56,842 bases of DNA, taken from Candidatus Rokuibacteriota bacterium. Its GTDB lineage: Bacteria; Methylomirabilota; Methylomirabilia; Rokubacteriales; CSP1-6. The notes beneath the pieces were generated by a model. The model made no database searches. It was not told the DNA's origin and saw only the letters and a program-made list of their open reading frames with translations. Of this stretch, positions 11,945 to 54,908 are shown in pieces. Where the stretch lies: contig JAUSJX010000064.1 of the NCBI GenBank assembly GCA_030647435.1, forward strand, positions 1-56,842, read 5' to 3'. Every line of letters starts with the position of its first letter. Position 1 is the stretch's first letter. The translations under genes were made by a program, and so were the position numbers.

Positions 11945-12847
11945 TCAGGCGCCGCGAAGGCGCGGGTCCAGGGTGTCGCGGAGGGCATCACCCAGGAGAT
12001 TCGCGCCGAACACCGCAAGGCTGATGGCGATGCCCGGGAACAGCACGAGGTGCGGCGCCTTCTGGGCGTACTCGGCGGCCGAGACGGAGAGCATCCGCCC
12101 CCACGAGGGGTACGGCTCGGGGACGCCGAGCCCCAGGAAGGACAGGGCCGCCTCGACCAGGATGGCGCTCCCGAGCTGGGCCGTGCCCAGCACGATGAAG
12201 GGCCCCACGGTGTTGGGCATGATGTGCCGGAAGGCGATGCGCAGATGGGTGAGGCCCAGCGCGCGCGCGGCTTCCACGTATTGGAACTCGCGGATCGAGA
12301 GCACGCTCGACCGGATGACGCGGGCGGCGCGCGGCATGATCGGGATCGAGATCGCGAGGATCACGTTCGGGATGGACGGCCCGAGCGCCGCAGCCATGAC
12401 GAGCGCCAGGACGAGGAGCGGCAGCCCCTGGAGGATGTCCATGACGCGCTGGACCACGAGGTCGGTCTTGCCGCCGACGTAGCCCGACAGGAGCCCGATG
12501 ACGCCGCCCAGCACCGAGGCGACGAGGGTCGAGCCCAGGCCCACCAAAAGAGACACGCGCGCCCCATGGAGGATGCGGGAGTAGATGTCACGGCCCAGGT
12601 GGTCGGTGCCGAGCCAGTGCGCCGCGCTCGGCGGCGCCAGCGTGACGGCGGCGTCGGTGGCGATGGGATCGTGGGTCTGCAGCACGTTGGCGAAGATCGC
12701 GGCGAACGCGATCAGCAGCATGATGACGCCGCCGGCCGCGCCGAGAGGCTTCTTGCGGCAGAAGCGCAGGAGCATCACCCACATCCCGTCGCGGGAGGGT
12801 CGCGCTGCGGGCGCGGCGACGGCCACGGCCGCCCCGCTAGCTGCCAT
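11945..12847 (-). CDS. ABC transporter permease, DppC/OppC type
   Basis: Inner-membrane permease, 300 residues, with the N-terminal LGTDHLGRDIYSR segment typical of DppC and the EAA loop EAARALGLTHLRIAFRHIMP that contacts the ATPase. Overlaps the preceding permease by 11 bp. No ATP-binding genes are in this set; it may use ATPases encoded elsewhere. Confidence 0.95.
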   Translation of the reverse strand: MAASGAAVAVAAPAARPSRDGMWVMLLRFCRKKPLGAAGGVIMLLIAFAAIFANVLQTHDPIATDAAVTLAPPSAAHWLGTDHLGRDIYSRILHGARVSLLVGLGSTLVASVLGGVIGLLSGYVGGKTDLVVQRVMDILQGLPLLVLALVMAAALGPSIPNVILAISIPIMPRAARVIRSSVLSIREFQYVEAARALGLTHLRIAFRHIMPNTVGPFIVLGTAQLGSAILVEAALSFLGLGVPEPYPSWGRMLSVSAAEYAQKAPHLVLFPGIAISLAVFGANLLGDALRDTLDPRLRGA

Positions 12848-13790
12848 AGCGCACCCGCGGGTCGAGCACGCCGTAGAGCATGTCCACGGCGAGGTTCGAG
12901 AAGATCACGACCATGGCGATGAACATGACGAGGGTCTGCACGATCGGGTAGTCGCGCCACAGGATGGCCTGCACGAGGAAGCGCGCGATGCCCGGCAGGT
13001 TGAAGACGGTCTCGGTGACCACGAGCCCGCCGATCAGGAACGCGAATTCGATGCCGATGATGGTCACGACGGGCAGGATCGCGTTCTTGAGCGCGTGGCT
13101 CCAGATCACAACCCGTTCCCCCTGCCCCTTGGCGCGCGCCGTCCTGATGTAATCTTCTCGCATCACTTCCAGCAGGGCCGAGCGCGTGATGCGCATGATG
13201 AGCGCCGACGAGCGGTAGCCGACCGCCATGGCGGGCAACGCGAACTGGATCGCGTGGAGCTTGAAGTTCTCGGTGGGGGGGACGTAGGTCATCGGCGGGA
13301 TCCACCCGATCCAGGCCACCAGCGTCAGGATGATGACCATGCCGAGCCAGAAGGACGGCATGCTGAGCCCCGCCAGGCTCACCACGCGCAGCACGTAGTC
13401 GAGCGTCGTGTCCTGGCGCACGGCGCTGATGACGCCCGTCGGGACACCGAGGAGCACCGCGACGATCATGGACAGCGTCGCCAGCTCGATCGTGACGGGG
13501 ATCAGCGGCCGGATGATCTCCCAGGCCGGCAGGTCGTAGCGGTAGGACTTGCCGAGGTCGCCGGTGGCCATGTGGCCGATCCACTCGAGGTATTGGGCCC
13601 AGACGGGCTTGTCGAGCCCGAGCTCCTTCTCGATGGCGGCACGCTCCGAAGGATTCACGTAGCCGCCGGTCGAGAAGAGGATGTCCACGATGTCCCCCGG
13701 CGCCAAGCGCAGGAGAACGAAGATCACCACCGACATCCCGAAGAGCGTCAGTCCCGCGATGCCCAGGCGCTGGAGGAGATAGTTCTTCAC
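12837..13790 (-). CDS. ABC transporter permease, DppB/OppB type
   Basis: 317-residue multi-pass permease. Seen: N-terminal LLQRLGIAGLTLFGMSVVIF, GDLGKSYRYD, the EAA-like loop ARAKGQGERVVIWSHALKNA, and C-terminal LDPRVRYGS, the usual DppB ending. Between the binding protein (stop 13801) and the DppC-type permease. Substrate probably a peptide or related amide (inference from the neighbouring amidase). Confidence 0.95.
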   Translation of the reverse strand: MKNYLLQRLGIAGLTLFGMSVVIFVLLRLAPGDIVDILFSTGGYVNPSERAAIEKELGLDKPVWAQYLEWIGHMATGDLGKSYRYDLPAWEIIRPLIPVTIELATLSMIVAVLLGVPTGVISAVRQDTTLDYVLRVVSLAGLSMPSFWLGMVIILTLVAWIGWIPPMTYVPPTENFKLHAIQFALPAMAVGYRSSALIMRITRSALLEVMREDYIRTARAKGQGERVVIWSHALKNAILPVVTIIGIEFAFLIGGLVVTETVFNLPGIARFLVQAILWRDYPIVQTLVMFIAMVVIFSNLAVDMLYGVLDPRVRYGS

Positions 13791-45783: not shown

Positions 45784-46571
45784 GCCGGCTCCAGGCGTGG
45801 CGGCCGCCCTCGGCCTTCCCCAGCCGGTGGATGGGCCCGGCCTGCTGGCTCGCGCTCTGCGCCTTTCTCGTCTGGAACGCGGCGAGCCTCGAGCTGGACC
45901 CGGCGCGGATCCAGCGCGGCTTGGCCCGCGCAGGGACGGTGTTCGGCAGGGCCTTCCCGCCCGACTTCCACCGCTGGCGGCTCCTGCTGGACGGCATCGT
46001 GGAGAGCATCCAGATGGCCACGCTCTCCACCGCGCTCGGCACGGCGCTCGGCATCCCGGTGGCGGTGCTGGCCGCGCGCAACGTGGTGCCGCTGCCGGTG
46101 TACGCGGCGGGTCGCGGCATCGTCTCCCTCGGGCGCACCTTCCACGAGATCATCGTGGCCATCATCATGGTCAAGGCCGTGGGCTTCGGCCCGCTCGCCG
46201 GCACGCTCACGCTCACGGTCAACTCGCTGGGCTTCTTCAGCAAGCTGCTGGCGGAGCAGATCGAGCAGATCGACCGCGGCCAGGTGGAGGCCGTGCGCGC
46301 GACCGGCGCGGGCCGCGGGGCCGTGCTGCTGTTCGGAGTGCTGCCCCAGGTGCTGCCGCGCGTCATCGGGCTCACCGTGTACCAGTGGGACATCCACCTC
46401 CGCCAGTCCACGATCATCGGGATCGTCGGGGCGGGCGGCATCGGCACGACGCTGTACAACTCCTTCTCCCGCTACGACTACGACTTCAGCCTGGCTATCC
46501 TGCTGGTCATCATCGCGATCGTCGCGGCGGGCGAGTGGGTGAGCGCCTGGGCCCGCAGGAAGATCCAGTGA
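45780..46571 (+). CDS. phnE: PhnE-type permease 1
   Basis: 263 residues, GTG start in GTGA overlap with phnC. Multi-pass; EAA loop [32 protein letters not shown] and the family ending [22 protein letters not shown] are visible. Forms the membrane part with PhnE2. Confidence 0.94.
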
Positions 46572-47380
46572 TGACGCATCCGGCGGCGCCGCCGGTTCCG
46601 CCCGTCTGGACCCGCCGGAGCCGCGGCCAGCACGTCGCGCGGCTCGCGGCGCGCCTGGGCGTCGCGCTGGTGCTCGTGTGGGCGGCCCGCGGCATGGGGG
46701 TCCGCTGGGAGTGGATCGCCGACTCCCCGGCCCAGCTCGCCGATCTCTTCGTCCGGATGGTCCCGCCCGACTGGGCCTTCGCCGGCGCGCTCATCAACCC
46801 GCTCCTGCAAACGGTGAACATCGCGACCCTCGGCACGGCCGTGGCCGTCCTCCTGGCCCTGCCCGTCGCCTTTCTCGCGGCGCTCAACACCACATTCAAT
46901 CGGGGCACCTATCTGCTCGCCCGCCTGCTCATCGTGGTCAGCCGCTCGGTGGACTCGCTCATCTGGGCGCTGATCTTCATCATCATCGTGGGACCGGGCT
47001 CTCTGGCCGGGGCGCTCGCCGTGGGCGTGCGCTCCCTGGGTTTCGTCGCCAAGCTCTTCGCGGAAGGCATCGAGGAGATCGACCGCGGCCAGGTCGAGGC
47101 GGTCACGGCCACCGGGGCCGGCCGCTTCCACGTGCTCCTCTACGGCATCGTGCCCCAGATCCGGCCGGTGTTCGCCGGCGTCTGCGTGTTCCGCTGGGAT
47201 ATCAATATCCGCGAGTCGACGGTGCTCGGCATCGTGGGGGCGGGCGGCATCGGCTTCGTGCTGAACGAAGCCATCCTGGGGCTCGAGTGGGCGCGCGTCA
47301 GCCTGATCTTATTGGTGATCCTGGGCATCGTCGCCCTGTCCGAGGTGGCCTCGGCCTGGATCCGGCGCCGTCTCGCATGA
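46571..47380 (+). CDS. phnE: PhnE-type permease 2
   Basis: 269 residues; ATG overlaps the phnE1 stop by one base (TGATG). EAA loop [32 protein letters not shown], then [22 protein letters not shown]. Complete to its TGA at 47378-47380, but its last 275 bp are duplicated at 54609-54883, and the sequence beyond it changes abruptly in base composition. Last gene of the operon. Confidence 0.94.
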   Translation: MTHPAAPPVPPVWTRRSRGQHVARLAARLGVALVLVWAARGMGVRWEWIADSPAQLADLFVRMVPPDWAFAGALINPLLQTVNIATLGTAVAVLLALPVAFLAALNTTFNRGTYLLARLLIVVSRSVDSLIWALIFIIIVGPGSLAGALAVGVRSLGFVAKLFAEGIEEIDRGQVEAVTATGAGRFHVLLYGIVPQIRPVFAGVCVFRWDINIRESTVLGIVGAGGIGFVLNEAILGLEWARVSLILLVILGIVALSEVASAWIRRRLA

Positions 47381-47394
47381 GCCCCACGCGCCGC
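47106..47394. repeat. Left copy of 289-bp direct repeat (3' end of phnE2)
   Basis: Matches 54609-54897 with a constant offset of 7503 bp and six mismatches (about 98%). It includes the phnE2 stop and 14 bases beyond. The other copy is the right flank of the acquired block. Confidence 0.97.
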
Positions 47395-48042
47395 AGGTTG
47401 CGGGCTCTTGTTGCCCAGGCGGTCATAGATTCACTTCGAGATCTCACCACTAGCGAGCGGCGGTACTATGTCGATATGTTTGAGTCTGTTCATTCGGAAA
47501 TCAGACACCAGGAACAGCCCGAAGTAATCGTGCGCCTCGCTTCGAAGGCCGCCCAGCGGGTGGCGCCACCCGCTTCTTTGCCCCCAGAGGGCACGGGTGG
47601 TGGTGAAGAAGCTCAAATAGGCTCAGATGAACCGTGGAAAGGTCTTCAGAAACTCTTCATTGCGGGCCTTGAAGGGCTCTCTGCGGAGCTTGAAGGTGTG
47701 GCTGGCAAGTTCCTCAAGACCTTCTCGGAACAAGTTGCAGAGAGACTCTTTGATGCCGGTGTCCGGCCACCCATGCTGACGAGTGTCGACCGGTTTGTCG
47801 CATGGTCGCTCAAGCCGATCAGATCAGCGCTGCAACTCGACGGTGTTGGAACCTCTCAAGACGTTAGGGATACGAAATCAGAGCTTAAGAGCGCACGAGG
47901 GCGCGTCAGATCGGAGCGGACCGAGGTGGCGGAAGAAAGGGCTATGAAGGCGAGCGAACGAGAGAATGAATCTCGGGGAAGGGCGGGGGCCTTAGAACGG
48001 GGCGCGGAGCGCCCGTCGGTGAGGCGAGGCCCAGTGCGCTGA
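47377..48042 (+). CDS. Hypothetical protein of unknown family, atypical composition
   Basis: 221 residues if it starts at the ATG that overlaps the phnE2 stop (ATGA). That ATG and the first six codons lie inside the duplicated repeat, so the native start may be internal. Visible: SLRDLTTSERRYYVDMFESVHSEI, a Glu/Gly linker near 70-80, a helical middle (GLEGLSAELEGVAGKFLKTFSEQVAERLF), and an Arg/Glu-rich tail likely to be coiled or disordered. GC is visibly lower than in phnE2. Family not recognised. Confidence 0.5.
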   Translation: MSPTRRRLRALVAQAVIDSLRDLTTSERRYYVDMFESVHSEIRHQEQPEVIVRLASKAAQRVAPPASLPPEGTGGGEEAQIGSDEPWKGLQKLFIAGLEGLSAELEGVAGKFLKTFSEQVAERLFDAGVRPPMLTSVDRFVAWSLKPIRSALQLDGVGTSQDVRDTKSELKSARGRVRSERTEVAEERAMKASERENESRGRAGALERGAERPSVRRGPVR

Positions 48043-48130
48043 TCAAGTGGAAATCTGCAGGGTGAGGTATTCGAGTCCTAAATCACTGACAAGGCAGGTC
48101 CCGAGGGAGGACGCTCGGGCGAGGCGGGCC

Positions 48131-48208
48131 ATGACTGAGAACGGGTTTTATGTTATCTACGCTCCCCGGTCTGATAATGGCCTTTATGTCGCCAACGCGC
48201 ACTCGTAG
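48131..48208 (+). pseudogene. 5' fragment of a split gene (first half)
   Basis: ATG at 48131 reads MTENGFYVIYAPRSDNGLYV.. and stops 25 codons later. Its last 36 bases before divergence (48165-48200) are repeated exactly at 50817-50852, where the same frame runs on with PKRFEAAFGEFIKARQ. Best read as the front of one interrupted gene. Protein family not recognised. Confidence 0.45.
48165..48200. repeat. 36-bp exact direct repeat, left copy
   Basis: Identical to 50817-50852. Begins CCCGGTCTGATAATGG. Flanks a 2.6-kb segment holding an SDR fragment, an Rhs fragment, a secreted protein and a glycosyltransferase. Confidence 0.95.
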
Positions 48209-48366
48209 CCTTTCTTCTTGAGCTTCTCGGCGACTTCCTGTGCGGCGTCCGCATCCAACTCGGCGACCGCCACTGCGGCGCCCTCTTCCGCCAGGCCTTC
48301 GCAGTACGCGGCGCCAATGCCGTGACCGCCTCCCGTGACGATCGCTACCTTCCCTTTAAGTCGCAT
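48184..48366 (-). pseudogene. Short-chain dehydrogenase N-terminal fragment
   Basis: 60 residues: MRLKGKVAIVTGGGHGIGAA is the SDR NAD(P)-binding start (TGxxxGIG), with its own GGGAGGA site. SDRs have about 250 residues; homology stops where the 36-bp repeat begins (48200), so the rest has been lost. Confidence 0.85.
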
Positions 48367-48381
48367 ATCTTCCTCCCTCGC

Positions 48382-48540
48382 TCACCAGCTGGTCCGTCGG
48401 TCGTAGGTGTAGGTCGTCGCGCTGCCCCAAGTATCGGTCACGCTGAGGAGATTACCGTTGGGATCGTATCCGAATTGGGTGAGGCCGTTCAAGGGATCGA
48501 TGGCCCGAGCAAAGACGTCAATACTCAAGCCCGACCCCAG
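48382..48540 (-). pseudogene. Rhs/YD-repeat protein fragment
   Basis: Minus-strand translation contains DPLNGLTQFGYDPNGNLLSV and then TTYTYDRRTSW before a TGA at 48384-48382. GYDxxGNLxxVTD and TYTYD are the core of Rhs/YD repeats. Only about 1.5 repeats remain, and the upstream part has no start codon. Remnant of a polymorphic toxin or large surface protein. Confidence 0.75.
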
Positions 48541-48652
48541 TTTTTCAATTTCACGCCCTCGCGACCTGACGTCCGGCTCTCCCGGCAGCCACCCCCGACA
48601 CCCGGCTCGGGATCGCGAGTGGTTACGGGGCCAGTTGCGGCTCCGAAAACGA

Positions 48653-49291
48653 CTAGGGCGCGCCGACTAGGCCGCACATGGTGAACTCGTCCGGCGCCGG
48701 ATCCGGCCCCACCGTGGACGGGTTCGGGTCGTGCAGATCGATATTCCCGCCTCCCGGCCCGCCCCCGCCCAGCAGGCGCGTGGCGACGTGGTACGCATTG
48801 GAGAGCCGGATGCCAAACCCGTCATTGGTGCCAGGCTCGCCATTGTCAATGAGTCGCACACGGAACCGAACGGGGGGTTCGCTCACGTTGGTCGTGGCCA
48901 CGCCGCAGATATCGCGGGTGTTCGATGGAGGGGACGGGTCCACGTATCCCGTGATCTGGATGCTGTCCACGTGATAGCCGGTGCCGTGATCGACATAGTT
49001 CACGTGGCCCCAGAAGTTGCCCTTCTTACATCCCCCGTGGACACCGAAGTTCGCCATCACGTTGGAGTCTGTAACGACGAAGCCACCGCTGGTGACGAAG
49101 TCGCAGGGCGACGGCACGGCGGGAGGGCAGCCGCCGCAGCACCTGTCCTGAGCCACCGCCGGGCTCACGGCCACCGCGCCTAATGGCACCAGCGCCGCGG
49201 CGAGCGCCGCCGCCCGAACATGCTTGAGCGCCCCCTGCAACAACTGCTGCGTCTTCTCCCGCAACTCTGCGTGACGGACGTCCTGAGACAT
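48653..49291 (-). CDS. Secreted protein with post-COAP-1-like domain
   Basis: 212 residues from ATG 49291, with AAAGGAGG upstream. Signal peptide (about 20-48: ALAAALVPLGAVAVSPAVAQ), a Cys-rich patch (CCGGCPPAVPSPC), then a beta-rich domain with FVTSGGFVVTDSN..ANFGVHGGCKKG.FWGHVNYVDHG and VRLIDNGEPGTNDGFGIRLSN, resembling domains named post-COAP-1. Function of such domains is unknown to me. Ends in Gly-rich GGGGPGGGN and DPAPDEF. Confidence 0.7.
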   Translation of the reverse strand: MSQDVRHAELREKTQQLLQGALKHVRAAALAAALVPLGAVAVSPAVAQDRCCGGCPPAVPSPCDFVTSGGFVVTDSNVMANFGVHGGCKKGNFWGHVNYVDHGTGYHVDSIQITGYVDPSPPSNTRDICGVATTNVSEPPVRFRVRLIDNGEPGTNDGFGIRLSNAYHVATRLLGGGGPGGGNIDLHDPNPSTVGPDPAPDEFTMCGLVGAP

Positions 49292-49394
49292 CTTCGTCCT
49301 CCTTTCAGGAACTCCTCGTTCAACGTTGTTGGATGGGACCCCCACGGAAAAAGGAGCCCGGTTTTTGAGGTTGACGCGTCATTCCCCGGTCCGT

Positions 49395-50666
49395 ATGTTC
49401 ACTACCGTGCGGCTTCTCCTGGCCAATAACCATTGCATCAGCGACCCGACCGCCGGCCTGACGCACAGCCTCCGCACGATCATGCGCTGGCTGGCGGGGG
49501 CCGGCCATGCCTGCCACGTTCTCACCACGGCCCGCTTCGAGAGCCCCGTCACCTTCACGATCGAGGAGCACTTGAGCCAGCTTGGCGTCCCGGTGGCGCG
49601 CGTCCCCGCGAAGCGCGGGATGGCGAAACAGGCCAACAAAAGACAGCGCCGCGCGGCCGGCCGGCCCATCGTTCACTACACAGTCGACGGGGTCCCTGTC
49701 ACCTTGCTTCTGACCCGCCACAACGACGAATCGCGGCCCGACCGTGCGGAGGCCACGCAGTACCAGGAACTGCTCGAACAGCTCCTGGACGAGTTTGCCC
49801 CGGACCAGTTGATCGCCTGCAACGGGCACCCGATGATCCAGCAGGCTTTGGCGATGGCCCGGAAACGTGGCGTGACAACCGTCTTTACCGTCCGGGGCTT
49901 CGGCTATTACGAGCGGCGATACTTCGAGCACGCGGATCACGTCTTTACGTGCAGCCAATACCTGACCGATCTCTACCGCGAGAAGGTGGGGCTGATCAGC
50001 ACACCCATCGAGCCGCCGATCGAGTGGTCGAACGTGATCGCGCCCACGGAGTCGCGTGCCTTCGTAACCTTCGTCCACCCGGCGCCTCACAAGGGGTTGC
50101 TGCTGTTCGCACGCCTGGCCGACATGCTGGGATCGAGGCGACCGGACATCCCCATCCTGGTCATCCAATCCGGCCAAAGCGGCGGCTCGCTGAACGCCAT
50201 TCCCGGCATCGACTTCAGCAAGTACCCGCAGATCATGGCCGCGCCGCCCGTTCCTACCCCGGCCGACTTCTTCGCGTTGACCCGCATCCTCCTGGTGCCC
50301 TCGGTGTGGGAGGAGCCGTTCGGTCGGGTGGCGGCGGAAGCGATGATCAACGCGATTCCCGCGATTGTCAGCAACCGCGGGTCCTTGCCCCAGGTTATCG
50401 GCGGGGATTTCTCCGCTGGTGGGGGCGGACGGGTATTGCCCATCCCCGACTGGCTGACGTTCAAGACCTTTCGGCTCCCCAGCGAAGAGGAGGTCCAGCC
50501 GTGGTTCGACGCCGTCTGTGCGCTGTGGGACGATCCCACTCTGTATCAGCGCGTGGCTACCCGAGCGCGTCAGATCGCCGAAGAGCGCTACAGTGAACAA
50601 GTGTCGCGTAAACAGCACGTCGACTACTTTACTTCATTGAGGCCGGGAGGCCGCCTGTTTATGTAG
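49395..50666 (+). CDS. GT4-family glycosyltransferase
   Basis: 423 residues from ATG 49395; longer starts add an unconserved N-terminus. GT-B fold landmarks: N-terminal NHCISDPTAGLTHSLRTIM acceptor region, then VHPAPHKGLLLF, and the donor-binding PSVWEEPFGRVAAEAM.NAIPAIVSNRGSLPQVIGG with the E-x7-E motif. Acceptor unknown. It diverges from the secreted-protein gene and lies within the mosaic block, without other polysaccharide genes. Confidence 0.85.
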   Translation: MFTTVRLLLANNHCISDPTAGLTHSLRTIMRWLAGAGHACHVLTTARFESPVTFTIEEHLSQLGVPVARVPAKRGMAKQANKRQRRAAGRPIVHYTVDGVPVTLLLTRHNDESRPDRAEATQYQELLEQLLDEFAPDQLIACNGHPMIQQALAMARKRGVTTVFTVRGFGYYERRYFEHADHVFTCSQYLTDLYREKVGLISTPIEPPIEWSNVIAPTESRAFVTFVHPAPHKGLLLFARLADMLGSRRPDIPILVIQSGQSGGSLNAIPGIDFSKYPQIMAAPPVPTPADFFALTRILLVPSVWEEPFGRVAAEAMINAIPAIVSNRGSLPQVIGGDFSAGGGGRVLPIPDWLTFKTFRLPSEEEVQPWFDAVCALWDDPTLYQRVATRARQIAEERYSEQVSRKQHVDYFTSLRPGGRLFM

Positions 50667-50816
50667 CCATTGTGCCCCTGTCAGAACCTGTCGGCAGACA
50701 CGACCTGCCCGTCGGCAGGCGGGCCTGCCCGGTCCCGCCACGCTCCCGTCTGCCGGACGCCAGGAGACGGATAGGTACGGCTCACCCACCCCGCCGTCGG
50801 CGCCCGCCGGCCCCGG

Positions 50817-50852
50817 CCCGGTCTGATAATGGCCTTTATGTCGCCAACGCGC
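50817..50852. repeat. 36-bp exact direct repeat, right copy
   Basis: Identical to 48165-48200; see that entry. It lies in the same reading frame as the left copy. Confidence 0.95.
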
Positions 50853-51001
50853 CTAAGCGCTTCGAGGCCGCTTTCGGCGAATTCATCAAGGCGCGGCAGG
50901 CGAGCCCCGCGTCGCTCGAAGCGTGCGAGGGCGTTCGGCGGGTCGGCGCCCGTCTCGGTGAGGTACCGCCCGCTATCGGGGAGTGCGCCGGAAGGTGCTA
51001 G
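50817..51001 (+). pseudogene. 3' fragment of a split gene (second half)
   Basis: The frame SDNGLYVANAPKRFEAAFGE.. continues to a TAG at 50999-51001 without its own start. It joins in frame to the fragment at 48131 through the shared 36 bp, giving a reconstructed protein of roughly 80 residues. The preceding stretch 50667-50816 is GC-rich with inverted repeats and no gene. Confidence 0.45.
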
Positions 51002-51035
51002 CCGTCCCGCGCCAGGACGTAGGATAGCGAAGACC

Positions 51036-51419
51036 ATGATCAAGAAACTGCTCATTGTCCTCGGCACGCTCGCAGTGGGAGCCATGGCGGTTCTCACCTT
51101 CGCACAGCACACTGTCGTGGACCTCGACCTGTGGGGCTTAATTGCCATGGGGCGGGAGACGCTGCTCCGGGGGTGGCCACCCACTCAGGACCCCTTCGCC
51201 TATGTCCCGACCCTCGATCCAGTCGTGTATCACGAGTGGCTGTCCGGTGTTATCTTCTACCTCCTGTTGCAGCAGTTCGGCAGCGCCGCGCTCAAGCTGC
51301 TCCTGATCCTCCTGGGCATCCTGACACTCTGCTTCGCGGCCCTTGCCGGCCGGCGTCGTGGAGCGTCCTACTTCTCGCTCCTCGTGAACGAGCCTGGTGG
51401 CCATGTGCTAGACCGTTGA
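51036..51419 (+). pseudogene. Truncated multi-pass membrane protein (N-terminal part)
   Basis: 127 residues: MIKKLLIVLGTLAVGAMAV helix, then DLDLWGLIAMGRETLLRGWP and PFAYVPTLDPVVYHEWLSGV, a start typical of large (about 500-residue) glycosyltransferase-like membrane proteins, and a second helix pair. It stops 12 bp before an attC-like site (51431). The rest of the family length is missing, so the integron array probably cut it. Confidence 0.6.
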
Positions 51420-51430
51420 GTCTTCGCGCT

Positions 51431-51487
51431 GTCTAACGCCAGTATCAGCCGCGGCCGAAGGCCGTCGGCTGCATGCCGGGCTTATGC
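51431..51487 (-). repeat. attC-like site 3 (57 bp), end of cassette array
   Basis: Read on the minus strand: R'' GCATAAG (degenerate), an inverted L''/L' region with CAGCCGACGGCC-TTC-GGCCG core, and R' GTTAGAC, which fits GTTRRRY. The stop TAA of the cassette gene lies inside R''. Confidence 0.7.
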
Positions 51488-51751
51488 GGACTGCAGGCGA
51501 GCCGGCCGACCAAGAAGTGAGGCTCTGACCCGACGCGGAACCTCTACGGCCGCGAACCATTCCGCCGGGTACAGATAGTCCTCGCCGCTCTCGTCAACGA
51601 CGCGAAGGTCGCCCTCCCGCGCCGCGTCTTGATCGGGGAGGACGCGGTAGATCTTGTGTAGTTCCAATGACGCGGGGTACCCCGAGTTCTCGACGCAGAC
51701 CACGAACGTAACCGCCTGACGACGACGTGCCTTCCGTGGTCTAGTCGACAT
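51482..51751 (-). CDS. Cassette 3 second gene: small conserved hypothetical protein
   Basis: 89 residues from ATG 51751, overlapping the preceding gene by 11 bp. Basic N-terminus, then FVVCVENSGYPASLELHKIY and DLRVVDESGEDYLYPAEWF, a pattern I recognise as a widespread small-protein family without assigned function (an SH3-like beta fold is plausible). Translationally coupled to its partner; stop codon inside the attC R'' box. Confidence 0.75.
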   Translation of the reverse strand: MSTRPRKARRRQAVTFVVCVENSGYPASLELHKIYRVLPDQDAAREGDLRVVDESGEDYLYPAEWFAAVEVPRRVRASLLGRPARLQSA

Positions 51752-51974
51752 ATCGTTTCCGCTTGACTTCCTTCCTGCCGAAACCATGCGCCTCATACCA
51801 GTGCACCTCCGCGCGGCGTACCGTTCCGCTTCGCAATCGGACCAGGGCCACCCCCTTGAGTTTCCGCCACCGACCCGTGCCATAGAGCCTGCGCAGCCTC
51901 GGGAGGTCCCGGATGCGTCTCCCTACCGCGATCGTCTCGATCTGTGAAATGTCGCGAACGATCTCGAAGGGCAT
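51741..51974 (-). CDS. Cassette 3 first gene: small basic hypothetical protein
   Basis: 77 residues: MPFEIVRDISQIETIAVG, then RLRRLYGTGRWRKLKGVALV and HWYEAHGFGRKEVKRKRYVD. Strongly basic, with no membrane segment. Overlaps the next gene by 11 bp, the arrangement typical of toxin-antitoxin pairs in integron cassettes, but no known toxin motif is seen, so this is only a possibility. Confidence 0.7.
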   Translation of the reverse strand: MPFEIVRDISQIETIAVGRRIRDLPRLRRLYGTGRWRKLKGVALVRLRSGTVRRAEVHWYEAHGFGRKEVKRKRYVD

Positions 51975-52059
51975 CGGCCTCCATTATGGCTGGTCCGTCA
52001 GCCATGCGCCACCCTTGAGCTTTTCTTGAGTCCGCGTCTTTCCCGGCAACACCGCTGTC

Positions 52060-52131
52060 GCGTAACGCGCACGTTGACCGGCCGCGGCGAGCAAATGCGA
52101 GCCAGCGGTCCGGTCGAACGTGAGGTTAGCT
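52060..52131 (-). repeat. attC-like site 2 (72 bp)
   Basis: Minus strand: R'' AGCTAAC (52131-52125), arms ACGTTCGACCGG and CCGGTCAACGT around a longer variable stem-loop, R' GTTACGC (52066-52060). The TAA stop of the cyclase gene is inside R'' (AGC-TAA-C). Confidence 0.75.
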
Positions 52132-52770
52132 GGCACGCGCGCGCCCCGATGTCGAGGCAGGAAGCTTGTAAACGCTCACGGCCGTGGTGAACCCCTTTGG
52201 TCGAACGGGCCAGGGGCCTACGAGACGGGTAATTTCGGTGAAGTCGTCTTGGTTGCCGACGTTGCCATAGTCTGCCTGAATCTGGTGAGCGAACGGCGCG
52301 TTGATGACTACCTCACCCTCCTCCGCAATCGCGACCAGCCTCGCTGCAAGGTCGATGTCACGTCCGTAGACGTCGCGCGCGTTCGGTAGGAAAGAGATAT
52401 CGTAGGACTCCTCGCAATAGCAGGCGCCGATCCTCACCGGCAGGATCGGTTCTCCAGTTCCCTCGGCGGCGATACTCGCGAGGCGAGCAAAGAGACCGAG
52501 TGGCGTCATTCCACGATTCCGAAAGTCATCTCGCTCCGCGAAGAACATCAAAGAGTCTCCGAGTCCTTTCAGCGGTGCGCCGATCTCCGCCAGCCACCCC
52601 TGAACGGTTGCGAAAGCGTTGTAAATCAAGCGAACCCAATCCGACAGACCACGCTCTTTCAATGAAGTGGAGCCGACGATGTCCCCGAAGACGCAATAAC
52701 CTGGGGACGGCCGAAGCTCGCGCAAGAGGTCGCGAAAGTCGCCAGCGCCCGGCACGATCAGAAACGACAC
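52126..52770 (-). CDS. Cassette 2: class III adenylate/guanylate cyclase-like protein
   Basis: 214 residues, GTG start. Single cyclase homology domain: FGDIVGSTSL with metal Asp30, KGLGDSLMFF with metal Asp72, and GRDIDLAARL, where the transition-state Asn is replaced by Asp but the Arg is kept. No sensor or membrane domain. Product cAMP or cGMP cannot be decided. If active, it would be a signalling enzyme carried by an integron cassette. It starts 32 bases after the R' of attC site 1. Confidence 0.8.
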   Translation of the reverse strand: MSFLIVPGAGDFRDLLRELRPSPGYCVFGDIVGSTSLKERGLSDWVRLIYNAFATVQGWLAEIGAPLKGLGDSLMFFAERDDFRNRGMTPLGLFARLASIAAEGTGEPILPVRIGACYCEESYDISFLPNARDVYGRDIDLAARLVAIAEEGEVVINAPFAHQIQADYGNVGNQDDFTEITRLVGPWPVRPKGFTTAVSVYKLPASTSGRARAS

Positions 52771-52801
52771 CTCAGTGGCTCCTCAACATGCCCATTCTGC
52801 C

Positions 52802-52859
52802 AGCTAACGCCATGGCTGAGCGGCGGGCTTCGCCCGCCCGCTCCAGCCAAAAGTTAGCT
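52802..52859 (-). repeat. attC-like site 1 (58 bp, canonical)
   Basis: Minus strand: R'' AGCTAAC (52859-52853), stem GGCT-G-GAGCG-G-GCGGGC, loop GAA, return GCCCGC-CGCTC-AGCC, R' GTTAGCT (52808-52802). The two unpaired G bases on one arm match the extrahelical bases that orient attC recombination. Length is that of a classical 59-base element. Confidence 0.88.
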
Positions 52860-53660
52860 TCATTTTGACCGCTTCCTGTCCAAGAGCCGACGCATGCTGT
52901 CACTAAAGCTCTTCGACGCAGCTTGGCTCGCCGCCACTTGGTTGACTAGGAATACTAGAACCTCCCTGACCACGCCGGCGTGTTCTAGACAGGTCTCGTC
53001 CGACTCAGCGTGCAAACCCTCACTCAGTGCAGTGTGCAGTACGGACAGCGGATTCATGCCATCCGGTCGGAGGATTAGAGGCAATAAATCCTTGACCAGT
53101 TCAATCTTTTCTTGCGTGACGATCGTCTTCTTGGTCTTCTCTAGGGCTACACTGAACTGCTTGAGATCGTCACCACTCATCAACCCCGAGATCTCGCCGA
53201 GAAGCCCGTCGATTACCTCCTCGACGATTCTGCGGTAGTAGCCGAACGCGCCAATGCCATATCCCTGAGACTCGCACACCAAGCCCTTGCGGAAATATTC
53301 GGCATGTTCCCCTAACAGCTTCTCTAGGTTAGGTTCTCCCTCGGCCTCCCACGATGGGAACTGGCCGACCTTCATGAACCACTGTTTCTTCTCGTCCACC
53401 TTGACGTAGAAAACGCGCTGGAAGTCCTGGCAGTGAGTGAACACGTAAACCGCGCGGAACGTGATACCTGCGACGGGGAAATTCGTGTACTGAAGCAGTT
53501 CATGGCTCTCGTTGGTCATCAGGAACGTCTGGTGGGAAGCGCATTTTGGACAGGCCATGTTGATCGCCGGCTTCGGCAGATCGTCGGCGTTGTTCGGCAT
53601 CCTTTCTACGCGGAACCTCCGGTATAGCGGATACTGCTCGAGGAATGTTTTGTCGGGCAC
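52860..53660 (-). CDS. Cassette 1: zinc-ribbon/DUF4145-like hypothetical protein
   Basis: 266 residues, GTG start 18 bases after the attI-like site. N-terminal MACPKCASHQTF holds one CxxC pair; the mid-section is beta-rich; the C-terminal part is helical (YYRRIVEEVIDGLLGEISG and VLHTALSEGLHAESDE), as in DUF4145-type proteins found near defence genes. No catalytic motif. The stop TGA abuts attC site 1. GC is near 50%, well below the host genes. Confidence 0.72.
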   Translation of the reverse strand: MPDKTFLEQYPLYRRFRVERMPNNADDLPKPAINMACPKCASHQTFLMTNESHELLQYTNFPVAGITFRAVYVFTHCQDFQRVFYVKVDEKKQWFMKVGQFPSWEAEGEPNLEKLLGEHAEYFRKGLVCESQGYGIGAFGYYRRIVEEVIDGLLGEISGLMSGDDLKQFSVALEKTKKTIVTQEKIELVKDLLPLILRPDGMNPLSVLHTALSEGLHAESDETCLEHAGVVREVLVFLVNQVAASQAASKSFSDSMRRLLDRKRSK

Positions 53661-53677
53661 TCGTGCGCTCCCTTTGA

Positions 53678-53710
53678 AGCTAACGCGAAGTCGCCTGAAC
53701 AGCGTTACCT
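53678..53710 (-). repeat. attI-like (or reduced attC) site
   Basis: Minus strand: AGGTAAC (53710-53704), 19 bases, GTTAGCT (53684-53678), with GTAACGC/GCGTTAG as inverted arms. It lies between the integrase stop and the first cassette, where attI is expected in the reverse layout. The gap 53711-53875 has inverted repeats (for example GCAAGGGG with CCCCTTGC) but no gene. Confidence 0.55.
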
Positions 53711-53875
53711 GACTGCGTAGTTCTGTATATCACGGCCGATGAGCCCGACGCGGCAAGGGGACGCGTGAATTCCCGCCCCCTTGCGTAGGCCCCCCGCCCC
53801 GCGTCCCCTGATAGACCGCGAGGCGCTGCAGGATATCCCGCTCGGATATCTGATATCGCTGCTGAAGAGCGAGGC

Positions 53876-54487
53876 TCAGCACAGGAACATCCGGTCGGCG
53901 GGGCTCTGGACCCCGGCCGGGCCCCGGTTGAGGACGTGGGTGTAGATCATCGTCGTGCTCACGTCCTGGTGGCCAAGAAGCTCCTGGACGGTGCGGATGT
54001 CGTGGCTCTCCTCCAGCAGGTGGGTGGCAAACGAGTGACGGAAGGTGTGGCACGTCGCCGGCTTGGCGATCCTGGCGGCACGGACCGCATCCTTCACCGC
54101 CCGCTGGAGCACGGATTCGTGGAGGTGGTGGCGGCGCCGCTGGCCGGTCACGGGCTCTACGTAGAGACGCCTGGCCGGGAAGACCCATTGCCAGCCCCAT
54201 TCGCGGCCGGCGTTCGGGTACTTGCGCAGGAGCGCGCCGGGCAGTTCGACCCAGCCGGCGCCGGGGCGGAGGTCGGCCTGGTGTTGCTCGCGAGCGCCTT
54301 CCAGGTGGGTGGTCAGGGCGGCCTTGACCGCGGCCGGCAGCATCGTCACCCGGTCCTTGTGGCCCGTGAAGTTACCCCGGTTCGGCGGACGGTGGACGGC
54401 GAGGGCCCCCGCGAGAGCACCTGCCGACAAGACGGGGTAGGACCACCCGCTGCTCGACCGAAGGGCGACCGTGCTCATACCCGCCAC
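53876..54487 (-). pseudogene. intI: IntI-type integron integrase, 5'-truncated
   Basis: The 203-residue open frame has integrase homology only from about residue 43 (KDRVTMLP, base 54360). It carries the IntI-specific insert [20 protein letters not shown] with VFP and [15 protein letters not shown], then the catalytic boxes: His147 and Arg150 in HTFRHSF, His173 in [11 protein letters not shown], and nucleophile Tyr182 in IYTHV. The N-terminal SAM-like domain and first catalytic Arg are missing, so it should not be active alone. It points toward the cassettes, the reverse-integron orientation. Confidence 0.85.
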
Positions 54488-54608
54488 TCCTTCTTATTCG
54501 TGGGCTTCGAAGATAGTCGACCGCCGGGGAGCGTACAAGAGAAATCCAGCCACCATCGTGCGGACGGGAGGATTGCGCGCAATCAGATACATCGCGCCCG
54601 GCGGGGCT
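54488..54608. other. Gap without recognisable gene
   Basis: About 120 bp of mixed-composition DNA between the broken 5' end of the integrase and the repeated phnE2 fragment. No reading frame or site is recognised; it includes the palindrome TTGCGCGCAA near 54576. Confidence 0.5.
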
Positions 54609-54883
54609 CGGCCACCGGGGCCGGCCGCTTCCACGTGCTCCTCTACGGCATCGTGCCCCAGATCCGGCCGGTGTTCGCCGGCGTCTGCGTGTTCCGCTGG
54701 GACATCAATATCCGCGAGTCGACGGTGCTCGGCATTGTGGGGGCGGGCGGCATCGGCTTCGTGCTGAACGAAGCCATCCTGGGGCTCGAGTGGGCGCGGG
54801 TCAGCCTTATCTTATTGGTGATCCTGGGCGTCGTCGCCCTGTCCGAGGTGGCCTCGGCCTGGATCCGGCGCCGTCTCGCATGA
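54609..54883 (+). pseudogene. phnE2 3' fragment (right copy)
   Basis: Encodes the last about 91 residues of PhnE2 with one substitution (Ile to Val); four of the five differences within the coding part are silent. No start or upstream half. It forms the right flank of the acquired block. Confidence 0.95.
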
Positions 54884-54897
54884 GCCCCACCCGCCGC
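54609..54897. repeat. Right copy of 289-bp direct repeat
   Basis: Pairs with 47106-47394 (about 98% identity). Sequences diverge at once outside both ends. Confidence 0.97.
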
Positions 54898-54908
54898 GGG
54901 ATCCTCCC

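Follow-up and report, generated by a model that had tools for sequence, protein, structure and literature searches.

The window analysed here is the whole of a 56,842-nucleotide stretch of contig JAUSJX010000064.1, from the genome of a Candidatus Rokuibacteriota bacterium (5.79 Mb in 176 contigs, completeness 98.5%, contamination 2.1%). It contains an integron that lies beside phnE2, a chromosomal phosphonate-transporter gene, and whose integrase gene, intI, points towards the cassettes. The order is intI (53876–54487), a putative recombination site attI (53682–53740), and three cassettes, all on the minus strand. Below, C64 is the contig of the window, G000 the genome to which it belongs, and G024 a sister species of the same genus; other contigs are denoted in the same way.

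The intI open reading frame (ORF) matches the IntI model TIGR02249 with E = 5e-70, at profile positions 157–315 only. Owing to the truncation of the gene, its score of 236 bits falls short of the cut-off for full-length matches, 265. The XerC, XerD and XerA models match it as well, far behind TIGR02249 (about 1e-24). A longer relative is encoded on contig C156: this integrase (P0001, 357 amino acids) matches TIGR02249 end to end with 472 bits and is 88% identical to the window integrase over the common part. Compared to P0001, the window copy retains a leader containing SYPVLSAG (approximately residues 3–27; 54394–54468) and then jumps to residue 195, continuing to residue 356; the internal deletion covers about 160 residues (about 28–194). 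In the alignment of P0001 with the solved IntI4 structure 2a3v (E = 6e-91), the lost segment takes in the N-terminal domain together with the GLR box, which carries the first catalytic arginine, and the later HxxR and Tyr boxes are kept; we take these boxes to have the catalytic roles usual for IntI. The window integrase also retains a stretch of 16 residues that aligns with IntI4 and is presumably IntI-specific. With the first catalytic arginine lost, no functional IntI is found at the locus, and the window integrase, an internally deleted pseudogene by its sequence, should be inactive. The original prediction of an IntI gene at the head of the array thus identified the gene correctly, but overlooked the deletion of the first half of the profile.

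The left flank of the C156 platform is 91% identical to G024:C180 up to position 12299, and hence the full-length integrase belongs to the Rokuibacteriota organism studied. No platform-length match is seen in the 6.6 kb read at the counterpart of this site in G024, which appears to be empty. In a search of the family, 27 of 57 genomes matched the C156 integrase at E ≤ 1e-60.

The attC sites of the first, second and third cassettes lie at 52802–52859, 52060–52131 and 51431–51487, respectively, on the minus strand. They were assessed with two covariance models, which replaced a simple pattern-and-fold finder that had produced many implausible pairs. Model R1 has nine seeds from elsewhere in the genome. 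Model R2 has twenty seeds, none from the window, so that the window sites are held out, both models being trained on sites of the same genome. Scanned over 382 kb, R2 matched the first site with 53.5 bits (E = 6.7e-12), the second, at 52060–52130, with 52.3 bits (E = 1.5e-11), and the third with 44.0 bits (E = 3.5e-9); the E-values are rough, as the calibration was short. The only other match in the window up to E = 1 scored 15.5 bits. Against the whole genome the E-values of the three sites were 1e-10, 2.2e-10 and 5.3e-8. When the filters were switched off for 47.0–54.7 kb, the first site reached 19.8 bits on the opposite strand, and the next-ranking separate place had 11.2 bits. R1 gave the third site a weak score of 22.6 bits (E = 0.0039), compared with 16.8 and 16.4 bits for two window positions that have nothing to do with the sites. 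An outside control, the site of a class 1 integron, was detected by R2 on the expected strand, weakly (18.2 bits, E = 0.0067).

Folding of the two strands is better than that of shuffled sequences for the first site (z = −6.5 and −5.0) and the second (−4.1 and −4.4), but only slightly so for the third (−2.2 and −2.3), where 4 and 8 of 200 shuffles fold equally well. In the alignment of twenty attC sites, 90% of cells pair and 14 of 23 pairs vary on both sides; not one of 500 shuffles equalled the alignment in even one of five measures, and slid versions were far behind it. The alignment was fitted to the structure, which biases the covariation score upward. The R″/L″/L′/R′ architecture is present at the cassette ends, and the genes that end at 52860, 52126 and 51482 run up to the sites or into them. 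At the sequence level this establishes the three attC sites at the positions and on the strand originally proposed, including their contact with stop codons.

The conserved core of attI, TATACAGAACTACGCAGTCAG, is located at 53709–53729 (minus strand) between intI and cassette 1, with the crossover GTT at 53684–53682; the outer limit of the site, 53740, is approximate. With up to three mismatches the core has seven copies in the genome, whereas the reversed pattern has none. All seven (on C64, C156, C134, C6, C27, C107 and C29) have attC downstream on the same strand. Six relatives were searched, and four of them carry eight further attI-like sites, seven of which have attC on the same strand and the expected side. 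Overall, of the 15 attI-like sites, 14 stand at the head of an array of attC sites.

A full-length integrase stands beside attI only on C156; the other platforms retain attI and have lost intI to varying extents. They have about 200 bp of near-identical DNA in common. Homology to the C156 platform begins at position 13219 in C134, 13459 in C27, 13504 in C6 and 13634 in C107, and is split in C64 (12434–12508 and 13008 onward) and C29 (12300–12491 and 13534 onward), the intI leader being retained in these two. At the other end the identity stops no more than a few bases from the crossover GTT (13702–13704), or about 10 bases short of it in C29, C107 and two relatives. For the C6 platform (G000:C6:64833), as well as G024:C114 and G024:C46, the homology begins directly after the stop codon of intI.

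Pieces of IntI with attC on the same strand at their 3′ side were found on C64, C156, C79, C134, C96, C48, C152, C60 and C168, the latter in two places. The C79 protein, at 286 bits, exceeds the family cut-off, yet covers profile positions 108–315 only. The pieces on C152, C48 and C96 are very short (21, 42 and 44 residues), and those on C60 and C168 have diverged. The genome has at least 39 attC matches above 31 bits, several on contigs with no detected intI piece; this count is a lower bound, obtained by scoring 150 first-look candidates.

The same site is occupied in the sister species. Contig G024:C141 has phnE2, an array with four attC sites, attI and an integrase remnant, and C85 of that genome, whose first 141 bases are the end of C141, continues to a GDSL gene. 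C64 and G024:C141 have flanks with 97% identity, and in both the homology to the integrase begins at position 13008 of C156. The arrays nevertheless share just one 45-base stretch (82% identity), inside an attC site of each. A second pair of platforms, C6 and G024:C114, both lacking intI, shows 94% identity along a 1556-bp stretch that reaches GTT, with platform starts 2 bases apart, and nothing similar is found behind GTT (best E = 0.18). Thus two shared sites demonstrably carry different cassettes. Further, the first cassette of G024:C141 is 97.4% identical to a cassette of G000:C134 (193 bp, limited by the contig end). It lies behind attI in the former and behind attC in the latter, and the match starts at most 2 bases from the crossover GTT. 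As one cassette has an attI joint in one array and an attC joint in another, cassettes have moved between arrays, and by parsimony they would have been exchanged at platforms whose own intI was already gone. In a genome of another genus (G053), phnE2 is followed directly by a gene that reads as a HAD-type phosphatase, and no attC was found in the 7 kb read there; hence the insertion beside phnE2 is probably specific to the lineage.

The window intI is codirectional with the array, and attI lies at its 3′ end, as in the inverted group of integrons. The layout was surveyed with R2 at the best 80 of 233 named loci. A call was possible for 51, 36 of them inverted and 15 classical; 29 yielded no call and none had both patterns. 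In all 51 the attC strand fits one consistent layout. Locus L105 has two extra attC sites upstream, on the same strand. Of 29 loci searched in the family, partly on the same contigs, attC was found at 19, and the layout is inverted at every one of these. Gemmatirosa has the inverted layout, Kovacikia the classical one.

On an IntI tree of 88 rows the layout changes once, on a branch with support 100/98 that is present in all of 200 bootstrap trees (40 rows labelled inverted and 17 classical; the 31 unlabelled rows are not counted). The root depends on two Xer-like rows with long branches, so that the tree shows the inverted rows to form one side of a branch rather than which layout came first. 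The inverted side includes rows from Rokubacteria, Planctomycetota, Myxococcota, Acidobacteriota, Binatota and Gemmatimonadota; the integrases of Treponema and Rhodopirellula are absent from the tree. The window row, covering 49% of the columns, is placed beside C156 and the Rokubacteria, and the nearest named relatives of the integrase are mostly Candidatus Rokuibacteriota metagenome-assembled genomes (MAGs) from soil and groundwater. As the layout changes once and 36 named relatives are inverted, the window integrase is of the known inverted type, and the inverted layout, as read from these sequences, characterises a broad group of IntI rather than the window locus alone. Both the predicted orientation, with the integrase transcribed toward the cassettes and its 3′ end next to them, and the predicted separation from Xer are borne out. 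What is newer than the layout is the phylum of the host, together with the set of platforms dispersed over the genome.

Two loci stand apart. On C60 (about 50.1–51.2 kb; L023, 1177–2271) a 338-residue tyrosine recombinase scores 93.7 bits with TIGR02249, below the cut-off, and has a 43.8-bit attC about 20 bases upstream of its 5′ end on the other strand; the neighbouring ORF reads as an IS91-like transposase. Given this score and the IS91-type-like neighbour, C60, with its opposite arrangement, was left out of the layout count. L090 (QHWF01000814.1), a contig from a MAG labelled Acidobacteria, has an inverted integron with seven attC matches and an integrase of 84% identity, reflecting either transfer or misbinning.

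The cassette 1 gene (52860–53660) encodes 266 amino acids, and the cassette 2 gene (52126–52770) encodes 214. The predicted three cassettes with one gene each hold as three attC-ended cassettes, but the third contains two short ORFs, of 77 codons (51741–51974) and 88 codons (51482–51748, counted from the ATG at 51748, within a longer 133-codon ORF). The cassette 2 protein distantly resembles the class III nucleotidyl cyclase Ma1120 (4wp3, E = 6e-4). Otherwise, Pfam and NCBIfam assigned no family to the four cassette ORFs, one NCBIfam line at E = 0.068 being disregarded, and PADLOC found no defence family among them. A resemblance of cassette 1 to repeat proteins in PDB (best E = 9e-4) was discarded, as no stretch passed alone. 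Alignment-free structure predictions were unusable, with a mean pLDDT (predicted local distance difference test) of 35.6 for cassette 2 and 39.0 for cassette 1.

The phnE2 gene (46571–47380, plus strand) is on the array-distal side of the insertion, and a copy of its 3′ end is on the integrase side (54604–54900, plus strand). Together they form a direct repeat of 297 nucleotides (47101–47397 and 54604–54900, 97% identity) that brackets the whole 7.5-kb insertion; the right-hand copy is absent in G024. Between phnE2 and the array end (47397–51430) the covariance model with filters off found no attC. This region is made of mixed pieces, among them genes for a post-COAP-1 protein (48653–49345) and a glycosyltransferase (49326–50666), and an ORF within 50829–51419 stops 11 bases before the last attC. 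An identical repeat of 36 nucleotides occurs at 48165–48200 and 50817–50852; its 24-nucleotide core has 16 copies in the genome with up to three mismatches (reversed control, 0), including three same-strand pairs spaced by 1.28–1.44 kb on C6, C114 and C155. The window has no Rfam match at the gathering thresholds and no tRNA or tmRNA.

We interpret the locus as a chromosomal inverted-integrase integron of a Rokubacterium, belonging to a dispersed set of platforms served in trans, and put the probability of this reading at about three in four. IntI would once have operated the window site by single-strand attC × attI recombination, as in other integrons. After the deletion in intI, the array could change in a site-specific way only via an integrase acting in trans, for which the full-length 357-residue IntI of C156 would be the likeliest candidate. 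In the dispersed attI-headed arrays, the resident integrase genes would then erode and attI would be kept. Capture and exchange of cassettes are suggested by the comparison of genomes; from it we infer that an IntI of the C156 type acts in trans, in which order deletion and exchange took place, and that the promoter is retained.

Several points weigh against this interpretation. G024:C141 has lost 97 further leader bases compared to the window, and the deletion end that the two share could in principle be a coincidence. Ordinary recombination through the platform of about 200 bp could swap arrays, although this would leave unexplained how the same cassette comes to be joined to attI in one array and to attC in another. 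The contigs come from MAGs and may be misjoined. The acting integrase may be another than that of C156: G024 has an IntI of its own on C123, about 75% identical over residues 12–355, and the second IntI of the studied genome, on C79, lacks the N-terminal third but keeps the first catalytic box. Finally, the attI-like site of G024:C170 has no attC match in the 1.5 kb read.

The strongest competitor, in our view unlikely, is a frozen remnant with a dead integrase, where the sister arrays came to differ by separate loss of cassettes or by homologous recombination of whole arrays. It accommodates the deleted integrase, the mere three cassettes, the lack of attC beyond 51.4 kb, and the availability of near-identical platform DNA for recombination. 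According to PMC3108266, inactivated integrases are common, so that a dead intI alone is not unusual. A frozen remnant is, however, difficult to reconcile with the exact attI–cassette joints kept in both species, with unrelated cassettes on two orthologous platforms with matching intI loss, and with the two kinds of junction formed by the same cassette.

A Xer-like recombinase, the hairpins being terminators or palindromic repeats, is very improbable. Such a reading could appeal to the matches of the Xer models and to the nature of attC sites as imperfect palindromes, some of which are matched weakly on the wrong strand. It is contradicted by the much stronger IntI match, the held-out attC matches, the consistent attC strand at every called locus, the arrays headed by nearly all attI-like sites, and the tree of layouts. 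Still less credible is a reverse layout produced from a classical integron by misassembly or rearrangement. The genome is indeed a MAG, and a direct repeat whose right copy is missing in G024 flanks the locus; but the same layout is seen at C156 with a full-length IntI, at the same site in G024, and in the 36 named relatives.

The reading of an integron served in trans may be carried further, to a distributed integron in which a single intact integrase, or a few, would act on at least seven attI platforms across one genome. Each platform would be a 3′ piece, differing in length, of the ancestral intI–attI unit. Here erosion could be selected rather than mere decay. In the inverted layout, deletion of the intI body with retention of the leader, or of the DNA just upstream, would bring the presumed intI promoter directly before the cassettes, and so the erosion of intI could be advantageous. 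The leader or the DNA just upstream is retained in the window, in C29, and in C141 and C147 of the sister species. We consider this extension tentatively, at somewhat less than even odds.

Inverted-integrase (reverse) integrons are defined in PMC4909258 by an intI codirectional with the cassettes, and PMC10500605 speaks of an "inverted integrase group" among intI genes; nothing on layout orientation was found in PMC2426708 and PMC3108266. The attC survey PMC8352920 modelled 11 taxa, and its main text makes no mention of Rokubacteria. A full-text literature search, with partial coverage, found no dedicated paper on integrons of Rokubacteria or Methylomirabilota. The integron is of a known kind, and its Rokubacteria host is apparently undescribed. 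The window locus extends inverted integrons to the Rokubacteria. As 54 of the 56 genomes of the family examined have attC matches, uncultured Rokubacteria of soil and groundwater may be a large reservoir of cassettes. If the service in trans is real, this would be a natural case in which one integrase and many landing sites divide gene capture between them, and the persistence of attI–attC arrays after integrase loss would become a testable question.

Among known systems, the closest are the inverted-integrase integrons, such as that of Treponema denticola, which also have intI codirectional with the cassettes; the differences are the Rokubacteria host, the deletion of the local integrase and the many attI platforms per genome. 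Classical integrons, that is, class 1 and the Vibrio superintegron, resemble the window locus in the IntI sequence with catalytic boxes as in IntI4, in attC sites with single-base bulges on one arm and, presumably, in the G^TT crossover. Their intI is, however, divergent from the array, whereas here it is codirectional, and IntI1 of class 1, 54% identical to P0001, is placed on the opposite side when the tree is divided by layout. CALIN and In0, classes of IntegronFinder, are similar in that attC arrays occur without a working integrase; the arrays described here differ from them in that attI can still be recognised and that a 3′ portion of intI, or of the DNA behind intI, is kept to a variable extent.

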